20,201 nt of DNA from the IMG/VR virus record IMGVR_UViG_3300009481_000147, positions 1 through 20,201 of that record. One strand, written 5' to 3'. Position 1 is the first letter of the stretch. Each line of letters begins with the position of its first letter. The stretch comes from a virus. The notes beneath the pieces are model-generated. The model saw only the letters and a list, made by a program, of their open reading frames with translations. It was not told the origin of the DNA and did not search any database. Both the position numbers and the translations under genes were made by a program. Of this stretch, positions 1-20,201 are shown piece after piece.

Positions 1-17
1 AAGATGATAGAGTCAGA

Positions 18-419
18 ATGCAATTAAAGATTGATGAATTAACAAACGGAGTTCGTTTAGACGGACTTGATGTTGTGGTTACAATGTATCATCCAGTCAG
101 ACATCAGACAGACGGAACACCAGATATATTAGCAGACGGAACAAAAATTACAATACATAAAGCATCAGAATATAATTATGTTGCGGTTAGTCGTAATCTA
201 TTGAAACGCTGGGGTGGTTGGTTAGACTTCGGAGATTTTATTATTCTAACTGGCACAGACGGAAAGGACGGAGTATATCAAGTCAAAGATACTATGAATA
301 GGAGATTTGTAAATCGTATTGATATATTAGAATCGCCTGGCGTCAAACCTTATAAGTTTACAGATGCTAAAATTAAAAAAGCAAACTTAAATGAGGATAT
401 AAAATTTATATCAGATTAA
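18..419 (+). CDS. 3D (Asp-Asp-Asp) domain protein, possible peptidoglycan-active lysis protein; N-terminus uncertain
   Basis: The protein is 133 residues from the first visible ATG. Its core (about residues 20-105) fits the short double-psi beta-barrel '3D' family related to the catalytic domain of MltA lytic transglycosylase: a 'VTMYHP' strand, 'TDGTPDILADGT', 'YVAVSRNLL', 'DGVYQVKDTMNRR' and 'RIDIL'. The two C-terminal family aspartates are visible (D91 in KDTMN, D102 in RIDIL). The first is not clear, because the 'AVSRN' segment has Asn where many relatives have Asp. Known relatives act on or bind cell-wall glycan, so an endolysin or wall-remodelling role is inferred. No signal peptide is visible, but the frame is open upstream to base 3 (codons D-D-R-V-R), so translation may start outside the window. 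There is no strong ribosome site before ATG 18. The C-terminal tail (105-133) is lysine-rich and unassigned. Confidence 0.7.
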   Translation: MQLKIDELTNGVRLDGLDVVVTMYHPVRHQTDGTPDILADGTKITIHKASEYNYVAVSRNLLKRWGGWLDFGDFIILTGTDGKDGVYQVKDTMNRRFVNRIDILESPGVKPYKFTDAKIKKANLNEDIKFISD

Positions 420-427
420 AAAAATAC

Positions 428-456
428 TTGACAAGTGAAAGAAAAAAGGTTATATT
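428..456 (+). promoter_or_regulatory. Sigma70-like promoter candidate
   Basis: TTGACA (428-433) is followed after exactly 17 bases by TATATT (451-456), 11 of 12 matches to the bacterial housekeeping promoter consensus. The -35 element lies in a perfect 11-base palindrome, ACTTGACAAGT (426-436). The predicted transcript start, about 463, falls inside the small gene whose ATG is at 457. The promoter could therefore serve the DUF4338 gene at 611 and those after it, but not full-length translation of the 457 gene. It would be a host-polymerase (early) promoter. In AT-rich DNA a chance match is possible. Confidence 0.45.
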
Positions 457-609
457 ATGAGTAAAAAAGAATACAAAAAATACCAAGAATCAGTTTGGTA
501 TAAGATAGAAAGATTTTTTGATAGACACAATCATCTAATGGAATTCATTAGAACACTATTGGCGTTTATAGTTCTATCATTACAACTATACATTATAGGA
601 AGGTTATAA
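457..609 (+). CDS. Small single-span membrane protein, 50 residues
   Basis: Reading from ATG 457 gives a 50-residue protein that stops at 607-609, one base before the next gene's ATG at 611. The N-terminal half is charged and lysine-rich (starts MSKKEYKKYQ). Residues about 33-47 form one hydrophobic segment (TLLAFIVLSLQLYII) ending in a short GRL tail, so a membrane protein with its basic N-terminus inside is likely. A weak ribosome site (AAAAAAGG, 442-449) precedes the ATG. The tight fit between the 18-419 gene and the 611 gene, together with the clear basic/hydrophobic layout, supports a real gene. I do not recognise the family. Its position beside a cell-wall-type protein allows a lysis accessory role, which is speculation. 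Confidence 0.55.
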   Translation: MSKKEYKKYQESVWYKIERFFDRHNHLMEFIRTLLAFIVLSLQLYIIGRL

Positions 610-610
610 G

Positions 611-1801
611 ATGAGTTTTGAAAATTTCTTTGGAGAAGCAGAGTTTAATTACGAATTAGAGAAAAAGAAGTTCATAGATAATATGGACTTTCTAAAAGAT
701 ATGTCAGTAGAGGAATCTACACTATGGAAGAAATGGGAAGAGTTTAACAAAGACCCACAATTCTTTATGGATAGAGCAGACACAATCGATAGATTAGAAA
801 AGACTATCTGGCAACCAACAGACATATTCAATAAAGAACAAACAATTCAAGAAATCAATTCAATCAGTCCAATAGTTGAACCAGTAGAACAAGGTAATGC
901 GAAAGCAAATGAAGATTGGATTCTAACAAGACGACTAATTCACTCAATGGAGTTCACGCCTAATCCAGGTCGTAATCTTAAATTTTATGTAAAAGATAAA
1001 TCAACTAATAAAGTATTAGGTTTGATTTGTTTAGGAAGTGATGTTACGAGTTTAGGAGTTAGAGATGATATGATTGGGTGGACTAAGGAAAATAAATTTA
1101 AAGAGGGTAAACTAAATCACACTGCAATTGGAACCACGATATGTTGTGTTCAACCATTGGGTTTCAATATGTTGGGTGGTAAGTTAGTAGCACAAATGGT
1201 TACATCAAAGGTAGTTCGTGATACTTGGAAAAAAGTGTATGGACAAACATTAGTTGGTATATCCACTACCGCTTTGTATGGTATTCACTCAATGTATAAT
1301 GGAATACCACAATGGAAAACTCTTGGTGAAACCAAAGGTAAGATTAGTTTAAAACCAGATGACAAGTTTTATGATGTCTGGCACCATTGGTTAAAAGAAA
1401 ACAAGTTTGAAGAGTATGATAAAAAAGTTGGACAACCAAAAGGTGCACTGCCAGTTACTGGTATCAAACAAAAAATAATTCAAATGATATATCAAGAGTT
1501 AGGAATTAAACGAGCGAAGTATGAACACGGATTTAAACGAGGTGCATATTTCGCAAATGTATATCAAAACGGAAAAGAATTTCTTAGAAGTGAAATCAAT
1601 GAAGATGAACTTATAATTAGAAATATGTTCGATAGAGATATTGAATACATTGATAGTTGGTGGAAACGAAAAGCAGTAAATCGTTATACTAAATTATTAG
1701 AACAAAATAAAATCAGACCAGAAAAACTATTCTACTCAGGTATGATAAACATATCTTGGGAAGAAGCAAAAGAAAAATATTTAGGAGATATTGGAAGATG
1801 A
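611..1801 (+). CDS. DUF4338 (DruA-like) family protein
   Basis: The protein is 396 residues. About residues 110-245 match the DUF4338 pattern as I know it, the domain found in DruA of Druantia defence systems and in many phages: 'EFTPNPGRNLKFYV', then 'KVLGLICLGSD', then 'VRDDMIGW' (R151-W157), then 'NMLGGKLVAQMV', 'RDTWKKVYGQ' and 'YNGIPQWKTLGETKGK'. The C-terminal part (about 280-396) has the 'HGFKRGAYFANVY..GKEFLR' and 'WWKRKAVNRYTKLL' segments that I associate with the T4-like phage branch. The first 100 residues are charged and helical. The biochemical activity of the family is not established, so I assign none. The ribosome site GGAAGG (598-603) sits before ATG 611. The stop overlaps the next start (ATGA at 1798-1801), suggesting coupling with the HD-domain gene. 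Context puts it among nucleic-acid and transcription genes rather than structural genes. Confidence 0.8.
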   Translation: MSFENFFGEAEFNYELEKKKFIDNMDFLKDMSVEESTLWKKWEEFNKDPQFFMDRADTIDRLEKTIWQPTDIFNKEQTIQEINSISPIVEPVEQGNAKANEDWILTRRLIHSMEFTPNPGRNLKFYVKDKSTNKVLGLICLGSDVTSLGVRDDMIGWTKENKFKEGKLNHTAIGTTICCVQPLGFNMLGGKLVAQMVTSKVVRDTWKKVYGQTLVGISTTALYGIHSMYNGIPQWKTLGETKGKISLKPDDKFYDVWHHWLKENKFEEYDKKVGQPKGALPVTGIKQKIIQMIYQELGIKRAKYEHGFKRGAYFANVYQNGKEFLRSEINEDELIIRNMFDRDIEYIDSWWKRKAVNRYTKLLEQNKIRPEKLFYSGMINISWEEAKEKYLGDIGR

Positions 1802-2598
1802 CATTAACAGAACAACAAATAACAGATAACTATAAAGAGTTAAGAAAGATTATCAATGATACATTTAGTGATTTAAGATTAGATAAACTAAATCATATGT
1901 ACGATGACTTAGAAGATAGAATGGTGGTAGCACCAGCGAGTTCAGTAGAACACTATCACAATTCAAAGGTTGGTGGATATGTAGAACACATATTACACGT
2001 GGTAAAATTTTCACTAAAAATTAAAAAGTTATGGGAAGACATAGGAGCAACGATTGACTTCACAGATGAAGAATTAGTTTTCGCAGCTCTACACCACGAC
2101 TTAGGTAAAGTTGGTGATGAGTTAGGAAACGAACTATACACACCAAACGAATCCGAGTGGCACATTAAAAACCAAGGTAAGATTTATAACTTTAATCCAG
2201 ACATAGAACATATGAACGTTACGGATAGAGTTTTCTTTTTATTACAACACTATGGTATCAAATATTCTCTACAAGAATTTTATGGTATTAGATTAGCGGA
2301 CGGAATGTATGAAGACGCTAATCAGAGTTATCTAAAAATATCAATGCCACATATGATGTTAAGAACACACATAGCGACTATACTTCACCAAGCAGATATG
2401 ATGGCGACACATTACGAAAGAGATGTGTGGAAAAATGGAAACAAGATAGAAGCTAAAAAAGTAGAACAATCAGTAAGTAAAATTAAAGGTGCGGTTGGTA
2501 AACAAGTTGAAGCGAACAATGAAGTTAAAGAAAAGTTTAACACCAAAACCACAGACGCTAAAGATATATTTAATGAATTGTTTGGAGAGAAAAAATGA
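1798..2598 (+). CDS. HD-domain phosphohydrolase
   Basis: The protein is 266 residues from ATG 1798. I prefer this start to the in-frame ATG at 1756 because the latter would overlap the previous gene by 46 bases, while GGAG at 1784-1787 serves 1798. HD-superfamily metal ligands are visible in order: H64 in 'GGYVEH', H100-D101 in 'AALHHDLGKVGD', and D200 in 'HQADMMA'. The region from about 50 to 205 is helical, as expected. HD proteins hydrolyse phosphoesters (nucleotides, cyclic nucleotides or RNA 3' ends). The substrate here cannot be read from the sequence. The extra residues between the second and last ligand ('NESEWHIKNQGKIYNF') resemble members seen in marine T4-like phages. The C-terminus (215-266) is a lysine/glutamate-rich helix. 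Stop and start overlap the next gene (ATGA at 2595-2598). Confidence 0.85.
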   Translation: MTLTEQQITDNYKELRKIINDTFSDLRLDKLNHMYDDLEDRMVVAPASSVEHYHNSKVGGYVEHILHVVKFSLKIKKLWEDIGATIDFTDEELVFAALHHDLGKVGDELGNELYTPNESEWHIKNQGKIYNFNPDIEHMNVTDRVFFLLQHYGIKYSLQEFYGIRLADGMYEDANQSYLKISMPHMMLRTHIATILHQADMMATHYERDVWKNGNKIEAKKVEQSVSKIKGAVGKQVEANNEVKEKFNTKTTDAKDIFNELFGEKK

Positions 2599-2846
2599 TA
2601 GGATACATATTACTAACACTATTTGTTTTAATATTAAGTTGGACTACATTTAATCTAACGAGGAAAGTAGAAAGATTAGAAACTTGGATTGAGAACTATG
2701 CAGAGAGAATACAAGAAACTAAAAGAATATTAGACGAAGTAGATATAAAAGGTAGTTTTGAAGCTGACGATGAAATAGGTGTAGTGTTTCAATCAATCAA
2801 AGAAGCAGTAGACGAGATAAACGAAATAACAGAAGAGGAGTTATAA
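2595..2846 (+). CDS. Membrane-anchored coiled-coil protein, conserved small phage protein
   Basis: The protein is 83 residues. Residues 2-20 are one strongly hydrophobic segment (IGYILLTLFVLILSWTTF), followed by a long charged helix (about 22-83) with coiled-coil character and an acidic stretch 'FEADDEIGVVF'. The layout (N-terminal anchor, 'NLTRKVERLE' linker, 'G.FEADDEIG..F..IKEA' tail) is one I recognise from small proteins of unknown function next to the late sigma gene in marine T4-like phages. Its ATG overlaps the end of the HD gene, and its stop overlaps the next start (TAATG at 2844-2848), so it is probably translationally coupled on both sides. The function is unknown. It could tether a partner at the membrane, but nothing in the sequence identifies that partner. 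Confidence 0.75.
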   Translation: MIGYILLTLFVLILSWTTFNLTRKVERLETWIENYAERIQETKRILDEVDIKGSFEADDEIGVVFQSIKEAVDEINEITEEEL

Positions 2847-3571
2847 TGCCGAGAAAAGCAAAAAAGGGTTCACCAAGATATTACTTCCACCAAGGAACAG
2901 AAGACGCAATCATTAGACATAATAAAGAAACTCGTCCACATATGAGGGAACGAATTTACAATGAGCATATCAGAACACCTTTTGAGAAATTGGCAGAAAA
3001 TATAATTCATACATTTAAGTTTTATTACTTTGATGTTCCGAGTGAAGATGTTAAACACGAAGTAGTAAGTTTCTTATATATGAATATGCATAAGTTTACC
3101 GAAGGTAAAGGAAAAGCATTTAGTTATTTCAGTATCGTCGCAAAGAATTATTTAATTCTACACAACAATAATAATTACAAAAAACTTAAACAACACGAGG
3201 GTGAAGAAGTTACGGATTACAAAAGAGATGCTATGTGGGAAACCAATAGAGCAGATATTTTGGAAGGACAAAAAGAGTATATGGATTTGTTCATAGAGTA
3301 TTGGGATAACAACTTGACTACCGTGTTCAAAAGAAAACAAGACATTGATGTCGCTAACTCAGTATTATATTTAATGGAACAAAGAAAAAATATTGAGAAC
3401 TTTAATAAGAAAGCATTATATATTCTGATTAGAGAAATGACTGGTTCTAACACACAACACATTACTCGTGTTATAAATGTTTTGAAAAAACATCATAGTA
3501 ATTTACAAAAAAACTATCGCGCTACAGGTTCTATTGAAACTAAATGGACAGGTAGTTGGGATATACTATAA
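2846..3571 (+). CDS. gp55-like sigma factor for late transcription
   Basis: The protein is 241 residues. About residues 35-105 resemble sigma region 2 of T4 gp55-type factors: helices 'RIYNEHIRTPFEKLAENII', then 'EDVKHEVVSFLYMNMHKF', then the diagnostic 'GKGKAFSYFSIVAKNYLI', which forms the -10 recognition and melting helix in the family. Around residues 190-218 a second helical segment ('LIREMTGSNTQHITRVINVL') looks like a helix-turn-helix, similar to a reduced region 4. The last residues end in 'GSWDIL'; T4 gp55 uses a short hydrophobic/acidic C-terminal tail to bind the sliding clamp, so this may be an equivalent (inference). T4 gp55 recognises TATAAATA, and exactly that octamer lies at 4131-4138, in front of the structural operon. 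Together these make the assignment strong. Confidence 0.8.
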   Translation: MPRKAKKGSPRYYFHQGTEDAIIRHNKETRPHMRERIYNEHIRTPFEKLAENIIHTFKFYYFDVPSEDVKHEVVSFLYMNMHKFTEGKGKAFSYFSIVAKNYLILHNNNNYKKLKQHEGEEVTDYKRDAMWETNRADILEGQKEYMDLFIEYWDNNLTTVFKRKQDIDVANSVLYLMEQRKNIENFNKKALYILIREMTGSNTQHITRVINVLKKHHSNLQKNYRATGSIETKWTGSWDIL

Positions 3572-3574
3572 TAT

Positions 3575-3580
3575 GGAGGA
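3575..3580 (+). promoter_or_regulatory. Strong ribosome binding site fixing the Hc1-like start
   Basis: GGAGGA is one of the strongest anti-Shine-Dalgarno matches in the window. It lies seven bases before ATG 3588 and excludes the upstream in-frame ATGs at 3534 and 3573. It implies a high translation rate for the Hc1-like protein, as expected for an abundant DNA-binding protein. Confidence 0.75.
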
Positions 3581-3587
3581 TATACAT

Positions 3588-3770
3588 ATGAGTAAAATCG
3601 ATGAACTATATTCACAACTAAGTGGTTTGTTTACAGAATTTGAAACAAATCATCAAACTAATGTTAACACCGGCAATAAAGCAGCTGGAACAAGAGCTCG
3701 TAAAGCACTTGGTGAAGTTAAAAAGTTAGTTACAGAATATAGAAAAGCTTCAGTAGAAGCGAGTAGATAA
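3588..3770 (+). CDS. Histone H1-like (Hc1-type) DNA-binding protein
   Basis: The protein is 60 residues. The start at 3588 is set by a strong ribosome site, GGAGGA at 3575-3580, seven bases upstream; a longer in-frame reading would run back into the sigma gene. The sequence 'NTGNKAAGTRARKAL' (about 27-41) followed by 'KKLVTEYRKASVEA' is close to the N-terminal helical part of Hc1 histone-like proteins of Chlamydiae and of short Bacteroidota relatives ('GNKAAGTRARK..L...KL..EFRK.S'). It lacks the long lysine/alanine repeats of chlamydial Hc1. The expected role is DNA compaction or nucleoid binding, either packaging-related or acting on the host chromosome (inference). It is the last gene before the terminator at 3783-3806, so it would be at the 3' end of the left-hand transcript. 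Confidence 0.75.
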   Translation: MSKIDELYSQLSGLFTEFETNHQTNVNTGNKAAGTRARKALGEVKKLVTEYRKASVEASR

Positions 3771-3782
3771 CATATAGAAAAA

Positions 3783-3806
3783 AAGGGCAGTATCTCTACT
3801 GCCCTT
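3783..3806. terminator. Bidirectional rho-independent terminator
   Basis: A perfect 10-base inverted repeat (AAGGGCAGTA, 3783-3792; TACTGCCCTT, 3797-3806) flanks a TCTC loop. It sits between two convergent genes. On the minus strand the stem is followed by a run of seven T (complement of A-run 3778-3784), a classic terminator for the 3819-4040 gene. On the plus strand the following tract (CTTCTTAA) is poorer in T, but the stem can still end the Hc1-side transcript. Confidence 0.9.
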
Positions 3807-3818
3807 CTTAATCCACCT

Positions 3819-4040
3819 TTATTTGTTGAGTAATCCAAGTATCACGATTAGTGATATAAATCCAGCAAATCCTGCATTACCAATTAGATTCACCAAACTA
3901 ATCAAATTACCAACAATGTCAATTCCTAAGAATCCCCCTACAAATACTAATTGTACGAGAACACCTAAGCCGATTATGTGAAGTAGTAAGTCTTTAATTC
4001 CACCTACTGCGTCCATAATCATTTTGATTGTGTCTTTCAT
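3819..4040 (-). CDS. Small hydrophobic membrane protein (holin-like candidate)
   Basis: This is the only minus-strand gene, 73 residues. After a short amphipathic N-terminus (MKDTIKMIMDAVGGIKD) nearly everything is hydrophobic, with two probable membrane spans at about 18-40 and 43-70, ending in 'GLLNK'. On the minus strand AAAGGGGG (4049-4056) lies eight bases before the ATG, a good ribosome site, and the terminator at 3783-3806 follows the stop, so this is a self-contained transcription unit. Size and two-span layout are compatible with a phage holin, and a 3D-domain protein lies upstream at 18-419. However, there is no holin-specific motif I can point to, and opposite orientation to all other genes is unusual for a lysis gene. 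'Membrane protein' is secure; 'holin' is a guess. Confidence 0.7.
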   Translation of the reverse strand: MKDTIKMIMDAVGGIKDLLLHIIGLGVLVQLVFVGGFLGIDIVGNLISLVNLIGNAGFAGFISLIVILGLLNK

Positions 4041-4066
4041 TTTAGTTTCCCCCTTTAAATGAACAA

Positions 4067-4088
4067 AAATCGGCCTTGAAACCGATTT
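4067..4088. repeat. Inverted repeat in the divergent control region
   Basis: The arms AAATCGG (4067-4073) and CCGATTT (4082-4088) are perfect 7-base complements around an 8-base loop. A TATAAT hexamer (4091-4096) begins two bases after the right arm, and the start of the minus-strand gene lies 27 bases to the left. Read on the minus strand the hairpin is followed by T-rich sequence, so it could be a leader attenuator for the 3819-4040 gene, or an operator between the two divergent units. No single role is proven by the sequence. Confidence 0.55.
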
Positions 4089-4130
4089 CGTATAATAACT
4101 ATATATGAATATACAAAAAATTAATTGGTA

Positions 4131-4138: not shown

Positions 4139-4186
4139 TATATTCCTATTTTTTAACATTTAACTATTTATTGTTAGGTAAAAACT

Positions 4187-4576: not shown

Positions 4577-5952
4577 TGGCCTATACAGAAACAGACGCTG
4601 GGTCTGGTTTAGATAATGTATTTGATAATTCATATATAACTAAAAGTGAATTGTATGCAATACTCGACCAGCTCAAAGAGCAAACACGATTTTATGAATT
4701 AGAAGTTTTTGAAGTTGTGGAGATAGATGAAAATCCAGCACAGGTTGTTGGTAGATATGTTTTTTCTGAACAAGGCGATTCAATAGACGAAATAGACGGT
4801 AGAACTTTTTTACCATTAAACTCAAATATTTTACAATACCCTTTACGAGGCGAGTTATGGTTAGGTATGGGTTACAAAGGACAACATTATTATTTAGCGA
4901 GATTGAGTGAAAATATTGACAATATAAACTTTGAGAAGTTTAATGAAAGTTCAAGAGTTCCAATCCAAACTACTGAATTATATAGAGGTAGAAATGTAGA
5001 CGGTTCAGACTTTGTCGATATAGTTCCAATAACACCAGATGTAAGTATTGGTGATACATTGGTTCAAGGTAGGTTTAATAATTATTTAAAAATAGGTAAT
5101 ACAGAAAATACTTCAAGTATAGAAATAAGAAATAGTGATAGTTCATTATTTCAAATGACAAATGAAAAGAAAATTAATTTATTCTCGGAAAACGATATCA
5201 ATATACAATCAGTTAGTGGAGATGTAAACATTCAGTCTGATGATAAAATTACACTTAAACCAACCAATAGTACAATTGAATTTGACATAAAAGAAAGTGG
5301 TAATGGTAAGATAGTAAATATAACTAATGAAGGTGTTCCTTTTCCAGAGTTAAATTTAGCAGGATTTATGAAACAAATAAACGGAGTAAAAAAAGTATTT
5401 GAAGGATTGCAAGCCGGAGTTCCTTTACTACCAAGTCCTTTTGGAATAAAGAAAATTGTAGAGGGATTAAAAGGTGCAAAAGATTTTATAGACGCCACCA
5501 TAAATTTAGAGTTTTTAGACCAAGATGTATTAACCACAAGAACACTTGGGGAACTACAATCCGCACTACCAATACCTGAAGGTTTTGGAAATATAATAAC
5601 TGATGTAACAAACATTACTGATGAACAATTATCAAAAGTTGATAAGTTATTAGAAGAGGCAGATAAGTTGAAACAAAAAAATGATGAGATTCGTTCTGCT
5701 ATTAACTTAACTGATGAAGATGAAGCTAGAAATTTATTTAACAATTTTGATGATAGTATTCCCGGCGTATCATCTATTAAAGAAGCATTGTCCATAACTA
5801 ATAGTGATACAGGTTGGCAAAATTTTAAAGATATGGGTGGACTTGATGAGTTTGACGAATTTCAAACTAAAACAGAAAATACCGCAAACGGAGCAAAAAC
5901 TATCAAGTCATACAAAAATTTATTTAATAGAATAGGAGTAAATAATGAATAA
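4576..5952 (+). CDS. Baseplate hub/spike protein, gp5-like (OB-fold plus beta-repeat), no lysozyme domain
   Basis: The protein is 458 residues. Residues about 30-120 are predicted beta-rich, with the 'YELEVFEVVEIDENP' start that I associate with the OB-fold domain of gp5-like hub proteins in marine T4-like phages. The segment 'GDTLVQGRFNNYLKIG' (about 158-174) is a conserved feature of these proteins. Then comes a short stretch of regular beta repeats ('INLFSENDINIQSVSGDVNI', 'DDKITLKP'; about 195-235), like the beta-helix of gp5 and VgrG spikes. The C-terminal 200 residues switch to helical and coiled-coil sequence. T4 gp5 carries a lysozyme domain between OB-fold and beta-helix; none fits here. 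The gene overlaps the next by eight bases. Confidence 0.75.
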   Translation: MAYTETDAGSGLDNVFDNSYITKSELYAILDQLKEQTRFYELEVFEVVEIDENPAQVVGRYVFSEQGDSIDEIDGRTFLPLNSNILQYPLRGELWLGMGYKGQHYYLARLSENIDNINFEKFNESSRVPIQTTELYRGRNVDGSDFVDIVPITPDVSIGDTLVQGRFNNYLKIGNTENTSSIEIRNSDSSLFQMTNEKKINLFSENDINIQSVSGDVNIQSDDKITLKPTNSTIEFDIKESGNGKIVNITNEGVPFPELNLAGFMKQINGVKKVFEGLQAGVPLLPSPFGIKKIVEGLKGAKDFIDATINLEFLDQDVLTTRTLGELQSALPIPEGFGNIITDVTNITDEQLSKVDKLLEEADKLKQKNDEIRSAINLTDEDEARNLFNNFDDSIPGVSSIKEALSITNSDTGWQNFKDMGGLDEFDEFQTKTENTANGAKTIKSYKNLFNRIGVNNE

Positions 5953-6430
5953 AAATAAGTTAAGAAATATTATTGAATTAGTTGTTCGTAAAGAAGTCAA
6001 AAAACAACTAAGTGAGATATTTATTAATGAAAAAGAAGAAATCAAATTAGCAGAAACGATTTCTAAACCTAAACCTAAAAAGGTTATCAATAAACCTAAA
6101 AAACAATACACAAAAAACACAGCGTTAAATGAGGTATTGAACCAAACCAAACCATTAGGAGCACCAATGGAAGATGATGAATATCCAACATTAGGCGGTG
6201 GAGTATTAGGTAGTGATAATATGGCAGAAGTATTAGGATACGGAGATTTAGGTAGAGGACAGAATAAAGAAAGAGCGAGAGAAATGGCAGCAGTTGATAC
6301 AATTAAAAAAGCTGGTGTTTCAGTAGACGCAGTTCCTGAAGATGTTCAGAATGCATTAACTCGTGATTATTCTGGTTTAATGAAAGCGATAAATAATAAG
6401 AAAAAAGGCGAAGGTGGGTTTAGACCATAA
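5945..6430 (+). CDS. Conserved hypothetical tail-operon protein with Lys/Pro-rich linker
   Basis: The protein is 161 residues. ATG 5945 overlaps the spike gene's end and is preceded by GGAG at 5934-5937. Residues 1-38 form a charged helix ('LRNIIELVVRKEVKKQLSEI'), 40-57 a Lys/Pro-rich linker ('KPKPKKVINKPKK'), and 60-161 a compact segment with 'ALNEVLNQTKPLG', a glycine-rich turn 'LGGGVLG' and a helical C-terminus ending in basic residues. I recognise the overall layout (N-terminal 'LR.II...VRKE' helix, middle 'ALNEVLN') from unnamed proteins beside baseplate genes in T4-like marine phages. The family has no function that I know. Placement between hub and gp25 genes suggests a baseplate or assembly role. 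Confidence 0.7.
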   Translation: MNKNKLRNIIELVVRKEVKKQLSEIFINEKEEIKLAETISKPKPKKVINKPKKQYTKNTALNEVLNQTKPLGAPMEDDEYPTLGGGVLGSDNMAEVLGYGDLGRGQNKERAREMAAVDTIKKAGVSVDAVPEDVQNALTRDYSGLMKAINNKKKGEGGFRP

Positions 6431-6837
6431 TGGCAAGAAGTGTAAGAGAAATAGATAGAAACGATGACAAGTATGTCGGAATAAGATTTCCATTGGACCA
6501 TAGTCCTGAGGGGTTCTTTTATAAAACGAAAACTGTCTTAGAACAATCAAAAGCAAACTTACAAAACTTGTTACTAACCACACCTGGTGAAAGAATATTT
6601 CAGCCAGAATTTGGCTCACAATTAAAAAACATTGTGTTTGAACAAGGTGAAGATATTCCAAATAGAATAGAAGAAGCTATTCGTTCAGCTACTGATTCTT
6701 TTTTATCATATATCAATATAATTAATGTATTCACTATACAAGAAAAAAATCAAGTCAATATACAGGTAGAATTTTCAGTTCCTTTAAATCCAGATACAAT
6801 TGAAATATTAAACTTTGACTTTAGAATTGGAGATTAG
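6430..6837 (+). CDS. Baseplate wedge protein, gp25/W family
   Basis: The protein is 135 residues, the usual length of the gp25-like family. The signature segment is 'LLLTTPGERIFQPEFGSQLK' (about 47-66), followed by a spaced 'FEQ' and a helix 'PNRIEEAIRSATDSFLSYI'. The C-terminal strands ('QVNIQVEFSVPLN..TIEILNFDF') close the fold. In T4, gp25 binds the gp6/gp7 core of the wedge and templates sheath assembly; in P2 the equivalent is W. The protein is often mis-called a lysozyme from an old annotation. TAATG overlap with the previous gene and only two bases before the gp6-type gene agree with its partners being co-produced. Confidence 0.92.
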   Translation: MARSVREIDRNDDKYVGIRFPLDHSPEGFFYKTKTVLEQSKANLQNLLLTTPGERIFQPEFGSQLKNIVFEQGEDIPNRIEEAIRSATDSFLSYINIINVFTIQEKNQVNIQVEFSVPLNPDTIEILNFDFRIGD

Positions 6838-6839: not shown

Positions 6840-8816
6840 ATGCCCGATTACGGAACAAATAAAAAAGTAGTTAAAAAAGAACTCAACTATATCGGTAGAG
6901 ATTTTACCGACATTAGAGAAAATCTAATTGAGTTTGCGAAATCATATTTCCCAACACAATACAATGATTTCAATGAAGCATCACCAGGTATGATGTTTGT
7001 TGAAATGGCTGCTTATGTTGGAGATGTACTGAATTACTATGTTGACAATCAGTTTAGAGAAACATTAATTCAATTCGCAGAAGAAAGAAAAAATGTATTA
7101 TCAATTGCACAATCATACGGATATAAACCAAGATTAGCCACACCTTCAACGGTTGAACTAACTTTCACGGTAGATGTTCCTTCCAAATTAGAAAATGGTG
7201 AGTATAAAGCAGATTTAGACTACGCAGGTAAACTTGCGGCAAACTCTACATTTACAGCAACAAATGGTACAGAATTTACTTTGTTAGATGATATAGATTT
7301 TAAAGTATCAAGTTCATTAGATACTATGGAGATAGAAGTATTACCGCCAACATCAGGAACTAATCCAACAAACTTCCGATTAACAAAACGAGGTTTAGTA
7401 CAATCTGGTGATAGAGAAGAGGAAACATTTACATTTACAAATGCAAAAGAGTTTGATAAGATTGTACTATCCAATGATAAAGTAACTTCTATCGTTGAGG
7501 TTGTTGATAGTGATAATAACAAATACTATGAGGTTCCATTTTTAGCACAAGACACTGTATTTGAAGATGAGGAAAATACAACACTTAATGACCCGGAACT
7601 ATCAGAATTTAAAAATGACGCTCCTTATTTATTAAAACTTATAAAGACTGCTCGAAGATTTACAACAAGAGTTCGTGATGACAATAAAATGGAATTACGA
7701 TTTGGTAGTGGTGTTAGTGATAATGCAGACGAAGAGTTGATTCCAAATCCAGACAATGTTGGTTCAAGATTAGGTTTAGGTATATCAAGATTAGATGATA
7801 GTTTTGACCCAAGTAATTTCTTAAAAACACAAACATTTGGATTAGCACCCAGCAACACAACACTTACTGTAACTTATAATTATGGTGGAGCAGTAGAACA
7901 CAATGTTAGTTCTAATTCAATAAATGCATTTAGTAGAAAACTATATACTAATAGTACAACAGGTTTAAGTAGTGATTTACAAGACACATCAAATGCAAGT
8001 TTAACCGTAACTAACGAAAACCCTTCATCAGGCGGAGCTTCAACAGAAACAATTACAGAAATAAAACAAAATGCATCTGCTTACTTTAATGCACAAAATC
8101 GTGCAGTAACAAAAGCAGACTATATAACAAGAGTTTACTCTTTACCACAAAAGTATGGTAATGTAGCAAAAGCGTATATAGTTCAAGATGAACAATTAGA
8201 AACAAATGGACAACTACAAGTTATTAATGGTGTTACGATTGATACAAGAAGAGACCAAGCCAACACCGTTCTAAATCCATTAGCGTTGAATATGTATTTG
8301 TTAGGATACGACTCAAACAAAAATTTAGTCAGAATGAATAGAGCCGTCAAAGAAAATATTAAATTATATCTTTCACAATATAGATTATTAACAGACGCTA
8401 TAAATCTAAAAGATGGATATGTTGTAAACATTGGTGTAAAATTTAATATTGTGGTAAAACGAGGATACAATAAAAATGATGTATTGTTTAAATCAATACA
8501 AAAGGTAAAAGAGTTTTTCCAAACAGAAAAATGGCAAATAGGACAACCAATCGTGTTAAGTGATTTAGCATATCAGATTTCGTTAGTTGACGGAGTAGTA
8601 TCATTAGTTCCACCAGAAATTAATAATCCTAATAAAGAATTAATACTTATCGAAAATAAAAACTCAACATTCCACGGAGATACTTATAGTGATAATATTT
8701 ATGATATGTTATCGGCTACAAAGGACGGAATAGTTTACACATCAGTAGACCCAAGTATATTTGAATTGAAGTTCCCTAATAGTGATATTGAGGGTAAAGT
8801 AGTGGGAGATAAATAA
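6840..8816 (+). CDS. Baseplate wedge protein, gp6/J family
   Basis: The protein is 658 residues, like T4 gp6 (660). The start of the family is visible: 'YIGRDFTDIRENLIEFAKSY' (about 17-36), with 'SPGMMFVEMAAYVGDVLNYY' soon after (about 49-68). The central part is beta-rich. 'AVTKADYITRVYSLPQKYGN' with 'VAKAYIV' next (about 421-447) and 'VNIGVKFNIVV' followed by 'GQPIVLSDLAYQISLVDGVV' match the C-terminal domain shared with J-type baseplate proteins. In T4, gp6 dimers make the continuous ring that holds the wedges together and transmits contraction. Ribosome site GGAG lies at 6830-6833. The stop overlaps the next start (TAATG). Confidence 0.9.
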   Translation: MPDYGTNKKVVKKELNYIGRDFTDIRENLIEFAKSYFPTQYNDFNEASPGMMFVEMAAYVGDVLNYYVDNQFRETLIQFAEERKNVLSIAQSYGYKPRLATPSTVELTFTVDVPSKLENGEYKADLDYAGKLAANSTFTATNGTEFTLLDDIDFKVSSSLDTMEIEVLPPTSGTNPTNFRLTKRGLVQSGDREEETFTFTNAKEFDKIVLSNDKVTSIVEVVDSDNNKYYEVPFLAQDTVFEDEENTTLNDPELSEFKNDAPYLLKLIKTARRFTTRVRDDNKMELRFGSGVSDNADEELIPNPDNVGSRLGLGISRLDDSFDPSNFLKTQTFGLAPSNTTLTVTYNYGGAVEHNVSSNSINAFSRKLYTNSTTGLSSDLQDTSNASLTVTNENPSSGGASTETITEIKQNASAYFNAQNRAVTKADYITRVYSLPQKYGNVAKAYIVQDEQLETNGQLQVINGVTIDTRRDQANTVLNPLALNMYLLGYDSNKNLVRMNRAVKENIKLYLSQYRLLTDAINLKDGYVVNIGVKFNIVVKRGYNKNDVLFKSIQKVKEFFQTEKWQIGQPIVLSDLAYQISLVDGVVSLVPPEINNPNKELILIENKNSTFHGDTYSDNIYDMLSATKDGIVYTSVDPSIFELKFPNSDIEGKVVGDK

Positions 8817-9976
8817 TGCATTATTTTGAATTTGGAAAAAGAGATACAACACTTTATTCAGGTGGAACAACCGCATCAAGAAATACAGGTTTAGATGAAA
8901 TATTAGAAATTAATAAAGTTGTAAACAACAATGGTACGGTAGGAAATGTATCAAGAATATTAATTGACTTTGATTTATCCTACATATCAAAATCCATACA
9001 AGACGGAAAAATACCTTCTACGGCAAAATATTATTTAAATTTATATGACGCAACATCAGAAGAAGTTGAAGCAGAACAACCACTACACATTTATATGGTT
9101 AGTGGTAGTTGGAAACAAGGAACAGGAAAACTTGACCACGACCCAGTAACACAAGACGGAGCGAGTTATCAATATAGAGACCACGAGGCGAAAACACCTT
9201 GGGTAACAGGTTCAGTATTGACTGACGGAGGTGCTTGGTTTACCGCAAGTGTTGACGGACAATATGAAGTTTCTACATCATACGACTTAACATTTGATAA
9301 ACGAGATGTTAGAGCAGATGTAACTGACTTGGTTAATAATCATATTTATTCAAGTTCAGTATACCCGAACAACGGTTTTATTGTCAAAAGAGAAGATAGT
9401 GGTTCTCACGGAGCGCATCCAAGTTCTTCTATGTTTGACTTTGACGCTGGACAAGAGGGTGATAGTTCAAGGTTAGGAAATCTAAAATACTTTTCTCGTG
9501 ATACACATACAATTTATCCACCTAAATTAGAAGTAGTTTGGGACGATAGTTCTTACTCAACAGGAAGTTTATCGCCTTTATCAACAACAGATTTAGAAAG
9601 GTTAAAAATATATTTCCAAAATTTAAGAGAAGAATACAAAGAAGATTCAATCGTGAAGTTTAGAATAGTCGGTAGAGAGTTATATCCAACAACTACTTTT
9701 GCAACTACACCGGCCGAATTGACGATTAAGTATCTACCAAGTGCATCGGCTTTTTATGAAGTTCGTGATGCGGATACCGAAGAAGTAATTATACCTTATG
9801 GTAGTGGTTCAAGAATTAGTTGTGATTCAACAGGTAATTTTTTTAGAGTTCAAATGAACGGACTACAAGCAGAGAGAAATTACAGATTTGCATTCAAGGT
9901 TGTTAGTGGTAGTGGAACAACAGATGAACAAATAAATTTCTATGATGATAACTATGATTTTAGAGTAGTGAGATAA
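8816..9976 (+). CDS. Baseplate/tail structural protein with DNRLRE-like beta-sandwich
   Basis: The protein is 386 residues. The N-terminal half resembles DNRLRE-type jelly-roll domains: 'KRDTTLYSGGTTASRNTGLD', 'RILIDFDLSYIS', 'YLNLYDAT', then tryptophan-rich 'SGSWKQGTGK' and 'TPWVTGSVLTDGGAWFTAS', ending with a 'DVRADVTDLVNNHI' strand (about 165-180). The C-terminal part (about 245-386) is another beta domain with 'FYEVRDADTEEVIIP', 'RISCDSTGNFF' and 'GLQAERNYRFAFKVV', which I have seen in unnamed virion proteins next to gp6 in marine T4-likes. Its position directly after gp6 is where T4 has gp7 and gp8. It is certainly a virion-type beta protein; equivalence to gp8 is not shown. GGGAG at 8804-8808 is its ribosome site. 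Confidence 0.7.
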   Translation: MHYFEFGKRDTTLYSGGTTASRNTGLDEILEINKVVNNNGTVGNVSRILIDFDLSYISKSIQDGKIPSTAKYYLNLYDATSEEVEAEQPLHIYMVSGSWKQGTGKLDHDPVTQDGASYQYRDHEAKTPWVTGSVLTDGGAWFTASVDGQYEVSTSYDLTFDKRDVRADVTDLVNNHIYSSSVYPNNGFIVKREDSGSHGAHPSSSMFDFDAGQEGDSSRLGNLKYFSRDTHTIYPPKLEVVWDDSSYSTGSLSPLSTTDLERLKIYFQNLREEYKEDSIVKFRIVGRELYPTTTFATTPAELTIKYLPSASAFYEVRDADTEEVIIPYGSGSRISCDSTGNFFRVQMNGLQAERNYRFAFKVVSGSGTTDEQINFYDDNYDFRVVR

Positions 9977-10692
9977 TGCCTTATTTACCGTCAGACGCAG
10001 AAAAAAAATCTGAATTGTATAATAAGATTATCAATGCCAATAGATTTGAATTATCAAGTAGGATAGAAAATTTAAAAAATCAACAGAATATATCTGGTTC
10101 GATTGACGCCAACACACCACTTAGAGATGATGAAGGTTTCTTAGTTTCATTTGAATCGGAAGAAGCAGGTATAGCTTTGGAAGAATCTTTTGAAGATGTT
10201 CGTTTACAAAATACACAAAGATTTTATACTAAAAAAGTAGAAAATGATTTTACATTTTTTATTCCAAAATCACAAACAGATGATAGTATCGAAGTAACTG
10301 AAACTGAGGAAGTATCAGAAGAAGAGGTAGAATTTCAAATGACCAATAGAGATTTTTTAATTCAATTTGTCAACGAATACTTTTCAGAAGAGTTTGACCC
10401 AGATATGTCGACAAAATTATTACACTCAAGGATTATACAATTTTTTAATGAAAATAGAAATGATATAAAAGGTCGTAATGCTAAAGGTTGGGAAAAGTTT
10501 AGACTAAACAAAGACCGAGAGGTAAGAGGAATTAGTAGAAGAAGATATAAAAGAATGAAAAAAGATTTAAAAAATTTCACTTACGATGAAGTAATAGAAA
10601 ACCACATTTATAGAACATATAGAGGACAAGAAATATGGTTAAAACTTGGATTACCATATGTTGAAGATAAATCACCAGGCAAAGACTCATAA
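9976..10692 (+). CDS. Hypothetical protein in the baseplate cluster
   Basis: The protein is 238 residues. The N-terminal third is helical ('EKKSELYNKIINANRFELSS'), the middle is very acidic ('SIEVTETEEVSEEEVEF', about 104-120), and the C-terminal half is basic and helical ('NDIKGRNAKGWEKFRLNKDR', 'SRRRYKRMKKDLKNFTYDEV'). This sharp acidic-to-basic switch suggests two domains or an intramolecular contact. I do not recognise a family. It overlaps both neighbours by one base (TAATG), so dosage is probably linked to the flanking structural proteins. A virion or assembly function is inferred from position only. Confidence 0.65.
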   Translation: MPYLPSDAEKKSELYNKIINANRFELSSRIENLKNQQNISGSIDANTPLRDDEGFLVSFESEEAGIALEESFEDVRLQNTQRFYTKKVENDFTFFIPKSQTDDSIEVTETEEVSEEEVEFQMTNRDFLIQFVNEYFSEEFDPDMSTKLLHSRIIQFFNENRNDIKGRNAKGWEKFRLNKDREVRGISRRRYKRMKKDLKNFTYDEVIENHIYRTYRGQEIWLKLGLPYVEDKSPGKDS

Positions 10693-11579
10693 TGGCAGAA
10701 TACGGATTTACACAAAAAGAAATACAGAATTACGAATCTCTTAAACGAGTTTATAGTAGTTGGGGTAGAGATGTAGAAAATGATTATTTAAAATTATGCG
10801 TTTATGATTTAGAGGGTAATTTACTACAAGAAAAGATATTAGGTTTAGATAGTGTTAGTCTTGAAAATGATGGAGATTTTGTTGACTTAAAAATAGGACA
10901 ACATCTTAGAGATTGTGGATATACTGAAGGTGAGTATGATGTTGAATATAGATTCCTGAGAAGACTCGCCGGTAGAGAACAAATAGTTTTTGTCGATGAT
11001 AATGGTAAAGTTTACAATCGTAAAATAGAAGAAAAAGAAATAAACGGAGAAATAAAATTCTTTACTTACATAGGTGAGGATAAAGATACAACAATAAGGA
11101 AAGAAGTTTTTCCAAGAGAACTTAAATACATTGGTTCTGAAATATCACCTGATAGAACTGAAATGGTTTTAGAATTAGATTCACAAATTAAAAATGCAGA
11201 ATATAAAATTAATTTAAATGAAATGGGGCAGTTAATTGAATATCAACCAAAAGGTACAATTAAATTTGATTCAAAAGAACCATACATTTTAGAGTTTGAA
11301 ATCAGTCCAAACGAAAGAGGGTTTACACAAAATATGGTAGGTGGAGAACTAATCATACCAGACTTATATAAAGTTACAGGATTTGAAGATTCAGACAACA
11401 CAGACTTACCAGATGATGAAAGTGATTTTGATTTTATTGATGCGTACGAATTAGACAACGAAGTTCCCACATACACCAATGAAGAATTAATCGAAATACT
11501 AAATGATGAAGATTCAACAGAAGAAGAACAATTTTATGCGGACCAAGCATTACAAGATAGGGCGTACGATAGAAGATAA
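10692..11579 (+). CDS. Predicted virion structural protein, beta-rich with acidic tail
   Basis: The protein is 295 residues. The segment from about 25 to 125 is beta-rich ('VENDYLKLCVYDLEGNLLQE', 'LKIGQHLRDCGYTEGEYDVE', 'YRFLRRLAG'), a pattern I have seen at the N-terminus of large structural proteins in marine T4-like phages. A second beta segment (about 140-225) contains 'ISPDRTEMVLELDSQI'. The tail (230-295) is strongly acidic with 'YTNEELIEILNDED' and 'EEQFYADQALQDRAYDRR', perhaps a docking helix. It overlaps the preceding gene and the 1162-residue baseplate gene by one base each. No enzymatic motif is visible; the role is inferred. Confidence 0.65.
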   Translation: MAEYGFTQKEIQNYESLKRVYSSWGRDVENDYLKLCVYDLEGNLLQEKILGLDSVSLENDGDFVDLKIGQHLRDCGYTEGEYDVEYRFLRRLAGREQIVFVDDNGKVYNRKIEEKEINGEIKFFTYIGEDKDTTIRKEVFPRELKYIGSEISPDRTEMVLELDSQIKNAEYKINLNEMGQLIEYQPKGTIKFDSKEPYILEFEISPNERGFTQNMVGGELIIPDLYKVTGFEDSDNTDLPDDESDFDFIDAYELDNEVPTYTNEELIEILNDEDSTEEEQFYADQALQDRAYDRR

Positions 11580-15908: not shown

Positions 15909-16952
15909 ATGGCATTTAAAAGATTCAATCCAGCAGACGACATAGTTGAAAATCAGAAGACTACAATATCAAGTGGTTTATGGAGTGGTGGAAGTGCAAC
16001 TCTTACTTCGTTCTTTACTCAATCAGCTAATGGAAATATAACAGGTTCTTTTTTAGAACTTTACAATGAGGACCCAAATCTATCAAGTTCAGCAGAATCT
16101 CAATTCTCAGTTGGATATGCACACATTGACGGAAGTGGTTCAGCAGGTAATACAACTAAACTAACAACAGGTGGTAGACAGACAGCCGCACTTTATAGTC
16201 AGTTTAGAAATGTATTGTTAGCACCAAACACAACACACTTTGAGTTTACAAGCTCACCAACAGCTTCAGGTGATAAAGACTTTTACTTTGTATCTTTCCA
16301 AAGAGCAAGACAAAGAGAAAAGATTGACCCAGGTAATTGGGAGATAAAACTAAGTGGTAATATGCCAGTACAACTTAAAGATGATACAATTACATTGATT
16401 GATGATAGTGGTGCAACTACAAACCCTACCGTTAATCAAGGTGGTAGAGTATTTAATGTTGTTAGTGGTTCTATATCTGACGGTATCAACACAACAGCAG
16501 CGAACGAACCTTCAGCAAATGGTGGTTCATATGGATTATTCTATCCTGACTTAGGATTGATATTGTTAAATGCGCCTAAGTTAGAAGTTAGTGGTGGTTT
16601 AGGAACTCACGCAAGAAGTGCTGATACATTTGATGACAGACCAAAAGCATTCTTTAACGCTCTTGTTTCTGGTTCAAGTTTCCAAGCAAGAAGAGAAGAA
16701 GAAATTAGTTCAACTAACTTCTTTGTTCGTGTAAACAACAAAGACTTTAACTTCAGTGCTAACCCAACTTTCTCGACAGGTTCAGACGGAAGTTTGACAC
16801 AAGCTTCTTTCTTTAAAGACCCTAAAACTTTTATTACACAAGTGGGACTTTATAATGATGAGAACGAATTGTTGGCGATTGCTAAGTTATCAAAACCAAT
16901 ATTAAAATCATATTCAAGGGAAGCTATTATTAAAGTGAAACTTGATTTTTAG
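15909..16952 (+). CDS. Tail structural protein, paralogue of the next gene
   Basis: The protein is 347 residues, serine/glycine/threonine-rich and beta-rich throughout. N-terminal features 'FLELYNEDPNLSSSAESQFS' and 'GYAHIDGSGS' are familiar from marine phage virion proteins. The last 41 residues ('TFITQVGLYNDENELLAIAK' then 'LSKPI') align without gaps to the last 41 of the 16962 product with 18 identities, and upstream pieces correspond too ('YGLFYPDLGLILL' with 'GNIFYEQGLLVFT'; 'FFVRVNNKDFNF' with 'YEYRVSAKPFEF'). The two genes therefore look like an old duplication. GGAG at 15899-15902 overlaps the previous stop and serves ATG 15909. Confidence 0.75.
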   Translation: MAFKRFNPADDIVENQKTTISSGLWSGGSATLTSFFTQSANGNITGSFLELYNEDPNLSSSAESQFSVGYAHIDGSGSAGNTTKLTTGGRQTAALYSQFRNVLLAPNTTHFEFTSSPTASGDKDFYFVSFQRARQREKIDPGNWEIKLSGNMPVQLKDDTITLIDDSGATTNPTVNQGGRVFNVVSGSISDGINTTAANEPSANGGSYGLFYPDLGLILLNAPKLEVSGGLGTHARSADTFDDRPKAFFNALVSGSSFQARREEEISSTNFFVRVNNKDFNFSANPTFSTGSDGSLTQASFFKDPKTFITQVGLYNDENELLAIAKLSKPILKSYSREAIIKVKLDF

Positions 16953-16961
16953 GACTACCTA

Positions 16962-17951
16962 ATGTTCAAAAATCTCGACCTAAATAACGACGCTACAATA
17001 AAGTCTTTTAAGTCTTTCAAAAACTTTACATTTACAAATAATGATAGTGGGAGCGGTGTATTCGCAATCAAAGCCAGAACAGGTTCATTGTATAATTATG
17101 TAAGTTCATCTGATGAAATCATCACAATAACTAATGATTCTACATCTACAAACTTTTTCGCATATCCAACTTATGTGATGTTAAATAATCTATATTATTC
17201 TAAACACGGACGAGAGTATGTAAGGTCAGGTTCTATGAATAGAAATTTACATAGTTCCGCATCAGTCATAAGTGTGGCGAGAGAATTGTTTGGAGAAAAA
17301 ATAAAACCAGAAAGTATCGAGTTAACAGCTACGGTCGGTGGTGAAACCTTTACAATCAAAGATGACGGAGAGGGTAATTTATATGATAATGCTTTCTCAT
17401 CAAGTTTCTCAACTTTCAAAACAAACAAATTTCAAAGTGGTAGTTCAACTACTGCGGCAACTCGTGGAAGTGGTTCAGAAGTAGGTAACATTTTCTACGA
17501 ACAAGGACTATTAGTATTCACAGATACAGGTTCTTACAAAGATGTTGGATTTGGAACATCTTATACTTTAAAGTATCAATCAACACAAACACACTACGAA
17601 TATGAATATCGTGTGTCAGCAAAACCTTTTGAGTTCAATACTTCAACAAATATCAGTTTAACACCTGATAGAAGTGGTAGCCAAACAATTTCTGAAGGTG
17701 TGGTTTCAATGTCAAACTTTTTCCCACCAAGTCATTTACCGACTGGTCAAGGAACAGGTAGTTATGCCACATTTTATAACGCAGCCACCGAATCATTAGG
17801 TATAGTAACAGGTTCAGAATTTCAACCTTTCGTAACAGATATAGGTTTGTATAGTGAGAATAATGAACTATTAGCTCACGGAAAACTCGCAAAGCCAGTC
17901 AAATTATCTAAGGATATCGAAACTACTTTTGTAGTTAGGTTCGATGTATAA
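16962..17951 (+). CDS. Tail structural protein, paralogue of the previous gene
   Basis: The protein is 329 residues, beta-rich, with Ser/Thr/Asn-rich surface segments. The C-terminal block 'PFVTDIGLYSENNELLAHGK' then 'LAKPV' repeats that of the 15909 product at identical spacing from the end. The N-terminal 110 residues ('SFKNFTFTNNDSGSGVFAIK', 'FFAYPTYVMLNNLYYSKHGR') are distinct, so the conserved part is probably the assembly or trimerisation module and the variable part the exposed one (inference). AGGA at 16951-16954 within the previous stop region is the ribosome site. The gene ends 50 bases before the exported-protein gene. Confidence 0.7.
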   Translation: MFKNLDLNNDATIKSFKSFKNFTFTNNDSGSGVFAIKARTGSLYNYVSSSDEIITITNDSTSTNFFAYPTYVMLNNLYYSKHGREYVRSGSMNRNLHSSASVISVARELFGEKIKPESIELTATVGGETFTIKDDGEGNLYDNAFSSSFSTFKTNKFQSGSSTTAATRGSGSEVGNIFYEQGLLVFTDTGSYKDVGFGTSYTLKYQSTQTHYEYEYRVSAKPFEFNTSTNISLTPDRSGSQTISEGVVSMSNFFPPSHLPTGQGTGSYATFYNAATESLGIVTGSEFQPFVTDIGLYSENNELLAHGKLAKPVKLSKDIETTFVVRFDV

Positions 17952-17962
17952 TATTTCTTAAT

Positions 17963-17980
17963 CTTATATTTATTATTGAA
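17963..17980 (+). promoter_or_regulatory. Shared 18-base intergenic element, copy 2
   Basis: CTTATATTTATTATTGAA matches the element at 15088-15105 at 17 of 18 positions and lies 21 bases before ATG 18002 in the 50-base gap. If it acts as a -10-type late element, the leader would be very short but would still contain the GGAG site at 17992-17995. Confidence 0.45.
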
Positions 17981-18001
17981 TTAAACTCAACGGAGAAAAC
18001 A

Positions 18002-20201
18002 ATGTTTCAGTTTATGAAAAAAATGGTTATGTCAGCAGTTATGTTTGGACTTGTCTTTGGACAATCCCCAATCATAAGAGTTAAACAATTAGGTAGCTGG
18101 GATTCACCACAAACTTGGTGGAAAGATTCAGTTAACCAAGAATTAGACGATTTTTTAGCACAAGACACCGACAATCAAGCGTTTGATAATAATAACTTTG
18201 ATATTTGGAGAGATAAAGTCTTGGAAATGGAAGTTACTGTCGATGATAATGGTGCAGATTTAACTACACTTAGATTTGATATTGCATTTGATAATGACTT
18301 AATTACTTGGATTGAAGATGGTGAATATGCCGATGAAACAAACGGACACACCGCTTGGAGTCAAGGAGATTCACGAGTAATTAAAGGTAGTCACATTGCG
18401 GATTGGGACGAAGGAGATGACTCAACTGATGATTATTCTTTTGAAGTAGTTCACTTTTCTAATGTAGGTTATCAAGACTCATTGGCAGTTGGTACTTCTC
18501 AAACACTAAAAGAAGAATCAATATCCGATACAAGATACGATTGGTTAAGAATTACTATGGTATCACACGGAAAAGATGAAGACAATGACGGAACACCAGA
18601 TAAAACATTTGGTAATGGTGACGGAGAAGAAATTCAAGTTCTTAGATTAAAATTTAAGATAAATGATGTTGTTGATGACTTCGCACCAAGAGCGTTTAGA
18701 ATACCAACATTTTATGACGGAAATTCAGGATACTACACATATGTATCTGATGATTATTTATTAGATTATAAAGTTTACATAGACGGAAATTGGGGACACC
18801 ACAAAACAGCAGACAGAACTTATAATGGTGGTGCTCGTGGAGACATTACACTTCACCCAAAACTTGTTGATGTTGAAGGATATATGAGATATATCGGAGA
18901 ATATGATGGTTCATCATTTACAAGAAACAAATATCCATTTATGAAAGTTATTTTTGAATTAGACGAATCTAATCCAGATAATCTTTCTAATTGGAGAAAT
19001 CCAAGAGATATTAATTATCCAACAAGTAATACAGACGAATCTTTAAATGATGATGTTATGGGTAGTTATGATGACGCTGGAACATTTGCATTAGGGTATC
19101 AACATATGAGATACTACGAACAAAACTTTGGAACAACATCAGACCAGAAAATCCAAAACGACGGATTTAGAGGAGTTAGTTATTGGTATTGGACATACAC
19201 AGATGATAAAGGATACTTTAATATTTCTTTACCACGAAACAACAGATATCGTGTATCGTTCTGGCCACCAGAAGCAGATGATAAAGTTGGAGTAAGTGGA
19301 AATGAACACACCACCTATACCTTAGATAGAGGTGGTATCACCAATATAGCAGACGCAAGAAAATCATTTAATTTCCAATCAAATAGATTTGAACAAGATG
19401 ATGAAATTGATAACATAACACCAAGTTCTTATTTAATCGGAGATGTTGACGGAGATGATGTATTTCAATTAAACGATACATACTTTGTATGGGCATACAC
19501 ATCAGGAGTGTTTGAAACATCATACACACACTACAACGGAGAAACTTATCAACAATGGTCAAGTATTGATAATTTAAAATCTAATGGTACTTCAGAAACT
19601 TTAAATTATTATCAAGCACACGACGGAAGTACAAGAAACCAAAGACGAGAGTTCAGTATATTTGTTGATGATGATTTAGCACAAGAAACCGAAACACTTG
19701 ATGAAGACGGTGGTGGTGTTGCTTGGTTTAATCCTTTGATGGACGATGTTCAAACAGGATTAGATACATTATCAATTAAATTAGGAGCAGGTAGTTCTAC
19801 ATTTGGAGATGATGTAAATCCAGATTATTACTTTACTCGACCAGATGGAGTAGGTACTTCTAAACAAGTAGATATTGTTGGAACTGATAACGATAGTGAT
19901 ATCGCATACTACTTTACAGGTGATTTAAATTTAACAGGTTTAAAAGTTGATAACAATGGAACATCAGAAACACCAAGTATTGATAGTAATGTTAATACAT
20001 TTTATCGTTGGGGAACAGGAACAGCACCAACAGAATGGGCAAGAACATCAGAAAGAACTTTACCAACAACAACAGATGTTCGTTTATCATTACCAGAAGA
20101 AGGTACGGTAAAAGTTCAAATGGGTAATCAAGTTGTAGTTCCTTTAACCATTACACCAATCGTAGATGAGTTAACAGGCAAACCAACCAAGATAGCAGGA
20201 T
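18002..20201 (+). CDS. Exported protein with dockerin/cohesin-like features, truncated by the window edge
   Basis: The frame is open from ATG 18002 to the last base, at least 733 codons, with GGAG at 17992-17995. The N-terminus is a textbook Sec signal peptide: basic start (MFQFMKK), hydrophobic core (MVMSAVMFGLVFG), likely cut before Q21 or nearby. The mature part is rich in Asp, Tyr, Trp and Asn and beta-rich. Residues 192-200 ('DEDNDGTPD') form an Asp-rich calcium-type loop. Residues 479-494 ('IGDVDGDDVFQLNDTY') fit a dockerin-type loop with Asp at positions 1, 3, 5 and 12 (D481, D483, D485, D492). The last visible part, 'DVRLSLPEEGTVKVQMGNQV' and then 'VVPLTI', resembles the first strands of a cohesin domain. 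Alternatives are a tail fibre/adhesin or a secreted host-surface protein. Function is not assigned. Confidence 0.75.
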   Translation, partial: MFQFMKKMVMSAVMFGLVFGQSPIIRVKQLGSWDSPQTWWKDSVNQELDDFLAQDTDNQAFDNNNFDIWRDKVLEMEVTVDDNGADLTTLRFDIAFDNDLITWIEDGEYADETNGHTAWSQGDSRVIKGSHIADWDEGDDSTDDYSFEVVHFSNVGYQDSLAVGTSQTLKEESISDTRYDWLRITMVSHGKDEDNDGTPDKTFGNGDGEEIQVLRLKFKINDVVDDFAPRAFRIPTFYDGNSGYYTYVSDDYLLDYKVYIDGNWGHHKTADRTYNGGARGDITLHPKLVDVEGYMRYIGEYDGSSFTRNKYPFMKVIFELDESNPDNLSNWRNPRDINYPTSNTDESLNDDVMGSYDDAGTFALGYQHMRYYEQNFGTTSDQKIQNDGFRGVSYWYWTYTDDKGYFNISLPRNNRYRVSFWPPEADDKVGVSGNEHTTYTLDRGGITNIADARKSFNFQSNRFEQDDEIDNITPSSYLIGDVDGDDVFQLNDTYFVWAYTSGVFETSYTHYNGETYQQWSSIDNLKSNGTSETLNYYQAHDGSTRNQRREFSIFVDDDLAQETETLDEDGGGVAWFNPLMDDVQTGLDTLSIKLGAGSSTFGDDVNPDYYFTRPDGVGTSKQVDIVGTDNDSDIAYYFTGDLNLTGLKVDNNGTSETPSIDSNVNTFYRWGTGTAPTEWARTSERTLPTTTDVRLSLPEEGTVKVQMGNQVVVPLTITPIVDELTGKPTKIAG

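Follow-up and report, generated by a model that had tools for sequence, protein, structure and literature searches.

Loss of GATC and other restriction-type sites across a clade of T4-like marine phages

Why should a stretch of viral DNA some 20 kb long hold not a single GATC or CATG? The window analysed here, meaning the whole of the linear record IMGVR_UViG_3300009481_000147 (20,201 nt; labelled G000 in our set), is probably a fragment, and comes from a T4-like marine phage. Megablast with the window as query gave no DNA-level match in any annotated phage; among cultured phages Microcystis phage Mel-JY01 (44%) comes closest by gp6, followed by Flavobacterium phage immuto (40%). As signs of lifestyle there are the T4-like baseplate genes, and a by-eye look through the translated lists of these fragmentary records showed no integrase. 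The features of the window referred to below are:

1..20201, either strand: no GATC and no CATG (exact counts and shuffles)
611..1801, + strand: DruA-family protein (PF14236, Pfam E 8e-25; PHROG 19197)
1798..2598, + strand: HD-domain phosphohydrolase (PHROG 28876, E 9e-12)
1997..2000, with others starting at 2216, 12013, 12861 and 13791, no strand assigned: ACGT sites (exact count)
5726..5729, no strand assigned: the sole CTAG (exact count and shuffle)
6430..6837, + strand: gp25-like baseplate wedge protein (PHROG 261 and 43)
6840..8816, + strand: gp6-like baseplate wedge protein, source of the clade tree (PHROG 219, E 1e-26)
18002..20200, + strand: secreted-type protein with a signal-like N-terminus, conserved in the clade and incomplete at the window end

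Both absences had been claimed by a sequence-only reading of the window, and an exact string count agrees with them. Base composition predicts 58 of each site, close to the 60 or so that had been estimated, and a second-order Markov model predicts 73 GATC and 49 CATG. When synonymous codons are shuffled within the coding regions, 56.4 GATC and 29.8 CATG are expected, and the lowest counts among 300 such shuffles were 43 and 21, so that the zeros lie far outside expectation (Poisson P 3e-25 for GATC and 1e-13 for CATG). Codon choice follows suit, as had also been noticed by eye: Asp ahead of a codon starting with C is written GAC in 29/29 cases, compared to 124/480 elsewhere, and a C precedes the ATG of Met in 0/92.

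The losses in the window extend to sites that the first reading had missed, namely CTAG (1 against 42–44 expected, P 2e-17), ACGT (5 against 37–46, P 1e-14), CGCG (1 against 7–10) and, more mildly, GTAC (22–23 against about 55, P 4e-7). Its argument that palindromes are not lost in general holds for GGCC, CCGG and AGCT, though GTAC, which it listed only as present, is depleted; GGCC, CCGG, AGCT, TGCA, TTAA and ATAT are all close to or mildly under expectation, and the loss is therefore not one of palindromes as such. If a site counts as eliminated, following PMC6286503, when its observed/expected ratio is below 0.1 with more than 15 expected, GATC (0/56), CATG (0/30) and CTAG (1/42) are eliminated from the window and ACGT (5/46, or 0.11) is borderline. 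That all this should stem from mutation bias, composition, codon preference or a library or assembly artefact is scarcely credible: the genomes are indeed AT-rich and skewed in codon use, but the codon and Markov controls reject the idea, and single-letter neighbours of GATC such as GATA and GATG are over-represented in the window.

The pattern is not peculiar to this record. Two scans of viral contigs gathered about 128 loci, and on a gp6 tree, a quick one whose deepest joins (L170, L171, L106) are unsure, the GATC-free clade containing the window forms one supported group (SH-aLRT 99). GATC is at zero in every contig of the clade but L062, which has one site. Pooling 50 non-redundant contigs (658 kb, with counts halved, both strands having been counted) gives 1 GATC against about 2,285 expected, 44 CATG against 1,819, 152 CTAG against 1,464, 226 ACGT against 1,359, 345 GTAC against 1,730 and 535 TCGA against 1,266. 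Against the codon shuffle the clade has 1 GATC for 1,597 expected, and the ratios are 0.00 for GATC, 0.04 for CATG, 0.12 for CTAG, 0.14 for ACGT, 0.19 for GTAC and 0.39 for TCGA. With at least five tetramers and several degenerate sites depleted, the proposal that only GATC and CATG specificities were at work proved too narrow; the depletion is real and stronger than had been described, and the interpretation first put on it is partly supported. Records of 54, 43 and 32 kb are also without GATC (200, 139 and 99 expected), and the pattern is therefore not confined to baseplate genes. Most outgroups and a binned bacterial genome lack the depletion. Contigs from the same metagenome differ by clade, which excludes an artefact: in 3300028925 the outgroups L097 and L098 have 20/53 and 16/50 GATC where G002 has 0/139, and in 3300030099 the outgroup L105 has 13/43 where L009 has 0/32.

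Within the clade, the sites other than GATC come and go. The gp6 tree requires a minimum of 6 changes of state for ACGT, 5 for TCGA and 2 for CTAG, and close relatives can differ sharply. For instance, ACGT stands at 29/41 (observed/expected) in L008–L009 but at 0/33 in their sisters L006–L007 (P 4e-8), and CTAG at 39/59 in L086–L160 but at 0/14 in L121 (P 2e-4). Similarly, CATG is at 115/268 in G004 compared to 6/146 in G001, although G004 has GATC at 0/231. A mutational process common to close relatives would not make sisters of the same composition lose different sites. A one-at-a-time substitution test on close relatives was also made, but its counts of sites "created" are unused, since neighbouring substitutions interact.

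The depletion is confined to recognition-type sequences and does not take in all palindromes, as is most easily seen for degenerate sites in the clade. CASTG is at 0.22 of expectation and CAWTG at 1.24, GTSAC at 0.38 and GTWAC at 0.85, AGSCT at 0.21 and AGWCT at 0.97, CTRYAG at 0.24 and CTYRAG at 0.52, and ACWGT at 0.22 and ACSGT at 0.66. Three of the depleted forms are the sites of known enzymes (CASTG of TspRI, GTSAC of Tsp45I and CTRYAG of SfcI). The same degenerate sites are mostly near 1 in outgroup phages, in immuto and in the cellular contigs of a metagenome-assembled genome (MAG) discussed below, NAT163; CASTG is low in one outgroup as well. Among non-palindromic sequences, GGATG and CCATC are at 0.40 and 0.47 of expectation in the clade, and these depletions, together with that of GTCTC, are suggestive only as restriction sites, codon-pair effects being only partly controlled. 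Separately, CCTCC/GGAGG is at 0.14 of expectation in the coding regions of the core clade; this loss probably reflects avoidance of internal Shine-Dalgarno (ribosome-binding) motifs, which it resembles, and is set apart from restriction avoidance here.

From these observations we infer that the sites were likely cleared by long purifying selection from orthodox Type II restriction enzymes of the hosts. Restriction by the host, already proposed from the window, is the best-supported cause, given the sharp specificities, the turnover between lineages, the fixation across the clade and the absence of the pattern from most outside relatives and from the cellular genome. An unmodified incoming genome would become cuttable by a host Type II enzyme at any new GATC and, under lesser pressure, at a new CATG, CTAG, ACGT, GTAC or one of a few degenerate sites; mutations creating a site would be removed, leaving codons chosen so as to avoid it in all frames. 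The pressure on GATC would be ancient and constant, and the other specificities would wax and wane with the enzymes of the hosts that each lineage encounters. The phage DNA may plausibly be unmodified at the lost sites, as had been suggested, though relatives encode the putative modification proteins described below. Roughly one viral genome in ten shows complete or near-complete elimination, chiefly of sites of orthodox Type II enzymes and chiefly among dsDNA phages that are not temperate (PMC6286503).

As to which hosts are involved, PorV/PorQ-, SusC- and GroEL-like proteins encoded by members of the clade point to Bacteroidota or a phylum close to it. The gene of the PorV/PorQ family (type IX secretion) lies in phage record G001 at 44163–45008, with homologues in G005 and G007, and the SusC- and GroEL-like proteins were identified by eye in G004. 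The last protein of the window (18002..20200) has relatives at 55–76% in G001, G005 and G007, and a search of genome contigs with it matched a single MAG, the Flavobacteriaceae genome NAT163, on contig L130. The two viral contigs of this MAG have 0/36 and 0/37 GATC, where the site reaches 0.89 of its expected number in the cellular contigs; the viral contigs are probably co-binned, and are therefore weak evidence on the host. Hosts carrying both GATC and CATG enzymes, which had been expected, were not identified: in the 251 genomes of NAT163's family DpnII-family enzymes occur in 5 and NlaIII-like (ICEA) enzymes in 2, and a search of NAT163 for both found neither. Such rarity fits poorly with an absolute and permanent exclusion of GATC, unless the true host group carries the enzymes far more often, or other enzyme families are responsible.

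The constancy of the GATC zero could also be read as the mark of a fixed phage gene. A phage-encoded nuclease for GATC (perhaps also CATG), used against host DNA, would leave the phage to remove its own sites and not to methylate them as chloroviruses do. This is improbable in our judgement, though GATC exclusion is constant across the clade while other sites turn over, and a Dam-family methyltransferase occurs in four contigs, two of them long members, all GATC-free over the stretches covered. In 14 fragmentary virus records no DpnII, ICEA or MutH/Sau3AI-type domain was found (the ICEA search was silent in the control too), and the remaining depleted sites would need another cause. A very remote prospect is that losing GATC lets the phages evade methyl-directed mismatch repair or nicking of the MutH type. 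Precisely this has been proposed for phiX174, which is likewise devoid of GATC, and absence of the site raises the phage mutation rate (PMC5014478). The loss, however, is not limited to GATC, so that CATG, CTAG, ACGT, GTAC and the degenerate sites are left unexplained, and MutH was not found in NAT163. Additionally, Dam/MutH repair is not known outside some Gammaproteobacteria, which counts against such a reading.

Candidates for further defences are encoded in the clade. DruA-family genes are widespread, with one to several per relative (the window at 611–1801, G002 at 40046–40636, G004 at 9037–9768). The AlphaFold model of the window's protein is of good confidence (pLDDT 86) and has as its best PDB matches mostly GNAT acyltransferases, though these matches are weak (E 5e-3); with its predicted GNAT-like core the protein is a possible DNA-modification or anti-restriction enzyme. 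Mom, too, belongs to the GNAT fold class. One small DruA-family member matches the DruA profile and, weakly, that of Mom, and this double match and the predicted fold hint that the two may be related acyltransferases. No Mom domain was found in the window fragment; Mom itself (PF25680) occurs in the GATC-free record G003 (22706–23449, − strand, E 6e-49), with homologues in L111–L113. In G004, also GATC-free, there are apparently two tandem Mom family proteins (9768–10535 and 10519–11322, + strand). The best solved match of the Dam-family methyltransferase is DpnIIA (E 6e-8), with a score under the NCBIfam dam cut-off. It adjoins a NodU-type carbamoyltransferase in two GATC-free records (G001 697–3059 and G002 36095–38517). 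A phage relative of the latter makes 5-carbamoyloxymethylcytosine (PMC8670742), and by analogy the clade's enzyme might modify DNA; neither a dCMP hydroxymethylase nor a thymidylate synthase was noticed beside it. With Mom, DruA-family and Dam-family proteins all present among the relatives, there may be several layers of defence, and the phages of this clade may use modified bases alongside site loss.

Could modification even determine which sites are lost? If Mom/DruA-type adenine hypermodification blocked many nucleases, only the sites that cannot be modified would need losing. The Mom of phage Mu acts in the context (C/G)A(C/G), which GATC, CATG, CTAG and GTAC all lack, and Mom is found in G003 and G004 and DruA-family genes across the clade. 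TGCA, AGCT and TTAA also lack this context yet are little depleted, the outgroup L116–L117 has Mom together with many GATC, and Mom was found in only a few contigs of the clade, so that we give the explanation little credence. A composite, in which a constant agent (a phage GATC nuclease or a core host nuclease) would fix the GATC zero and Mom/DruA modification would cover the protectable sites, also seems unlikely to us; if true, site loss and modification would be two halves of a single anti-restriction scheme.

On the preferred reading, that of selection by host enzymes, the clade would be a natural record of the restriction specificities carried by uncultured hosts, its tree would allow the gains and losses of each restriction pressure to be ordered, and the set of lost sites would be a clue to the host available from sequence alone. 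There are practical consequences as well: binning and host prediction based on tetranucleotides will be distorted for such viruses, and GATC cutters (e.g. DpnII in Hi-C) will leave DNA of the clade uncut.

Site elimination is a known strategy, with phage K and phiX174 as examples, and what is unusual here is its breadth and its fixation across a clade. The restriction-site avoidance described in prokaryotic viruses by Rusinov et al. 2018 (PMC6286503) is alike in that short palindromic Type II sites are nearly gone from a dsDNA tailed phage, but differs in that the present losses take in several tetramers together with degenerate sites, one of them fixed at zero across a whole uncultured clade. 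Staphylococcus phage K has eliminated GATC from its 140-kb genome, against Sau3A (review PMC6532042), and like the clade is a large myovirus with total elimination; its host enzyme is known, whereas no cognate enzyme was found for the clade, which loses CATG, CTAG and ACGT too. By contrast phiX174, without GATC in 5.4 kb, is a small ssDNA phage and is not multi-site as described (PMC5014478). A distant cultured relative, Microcystis phage Mel-JY01 (PP395634; L171, L183, L184 and L185 in our set), has an annotated DNA modification methylase (107922–108704). Its 185 kb have GATC at 0/~347 and CTAG at 0/~153, with GAATTC and GATATC also at 0, but it differs from the clade in retaining CATG, ACGT and GTAC and in having a cyanobacterial host.
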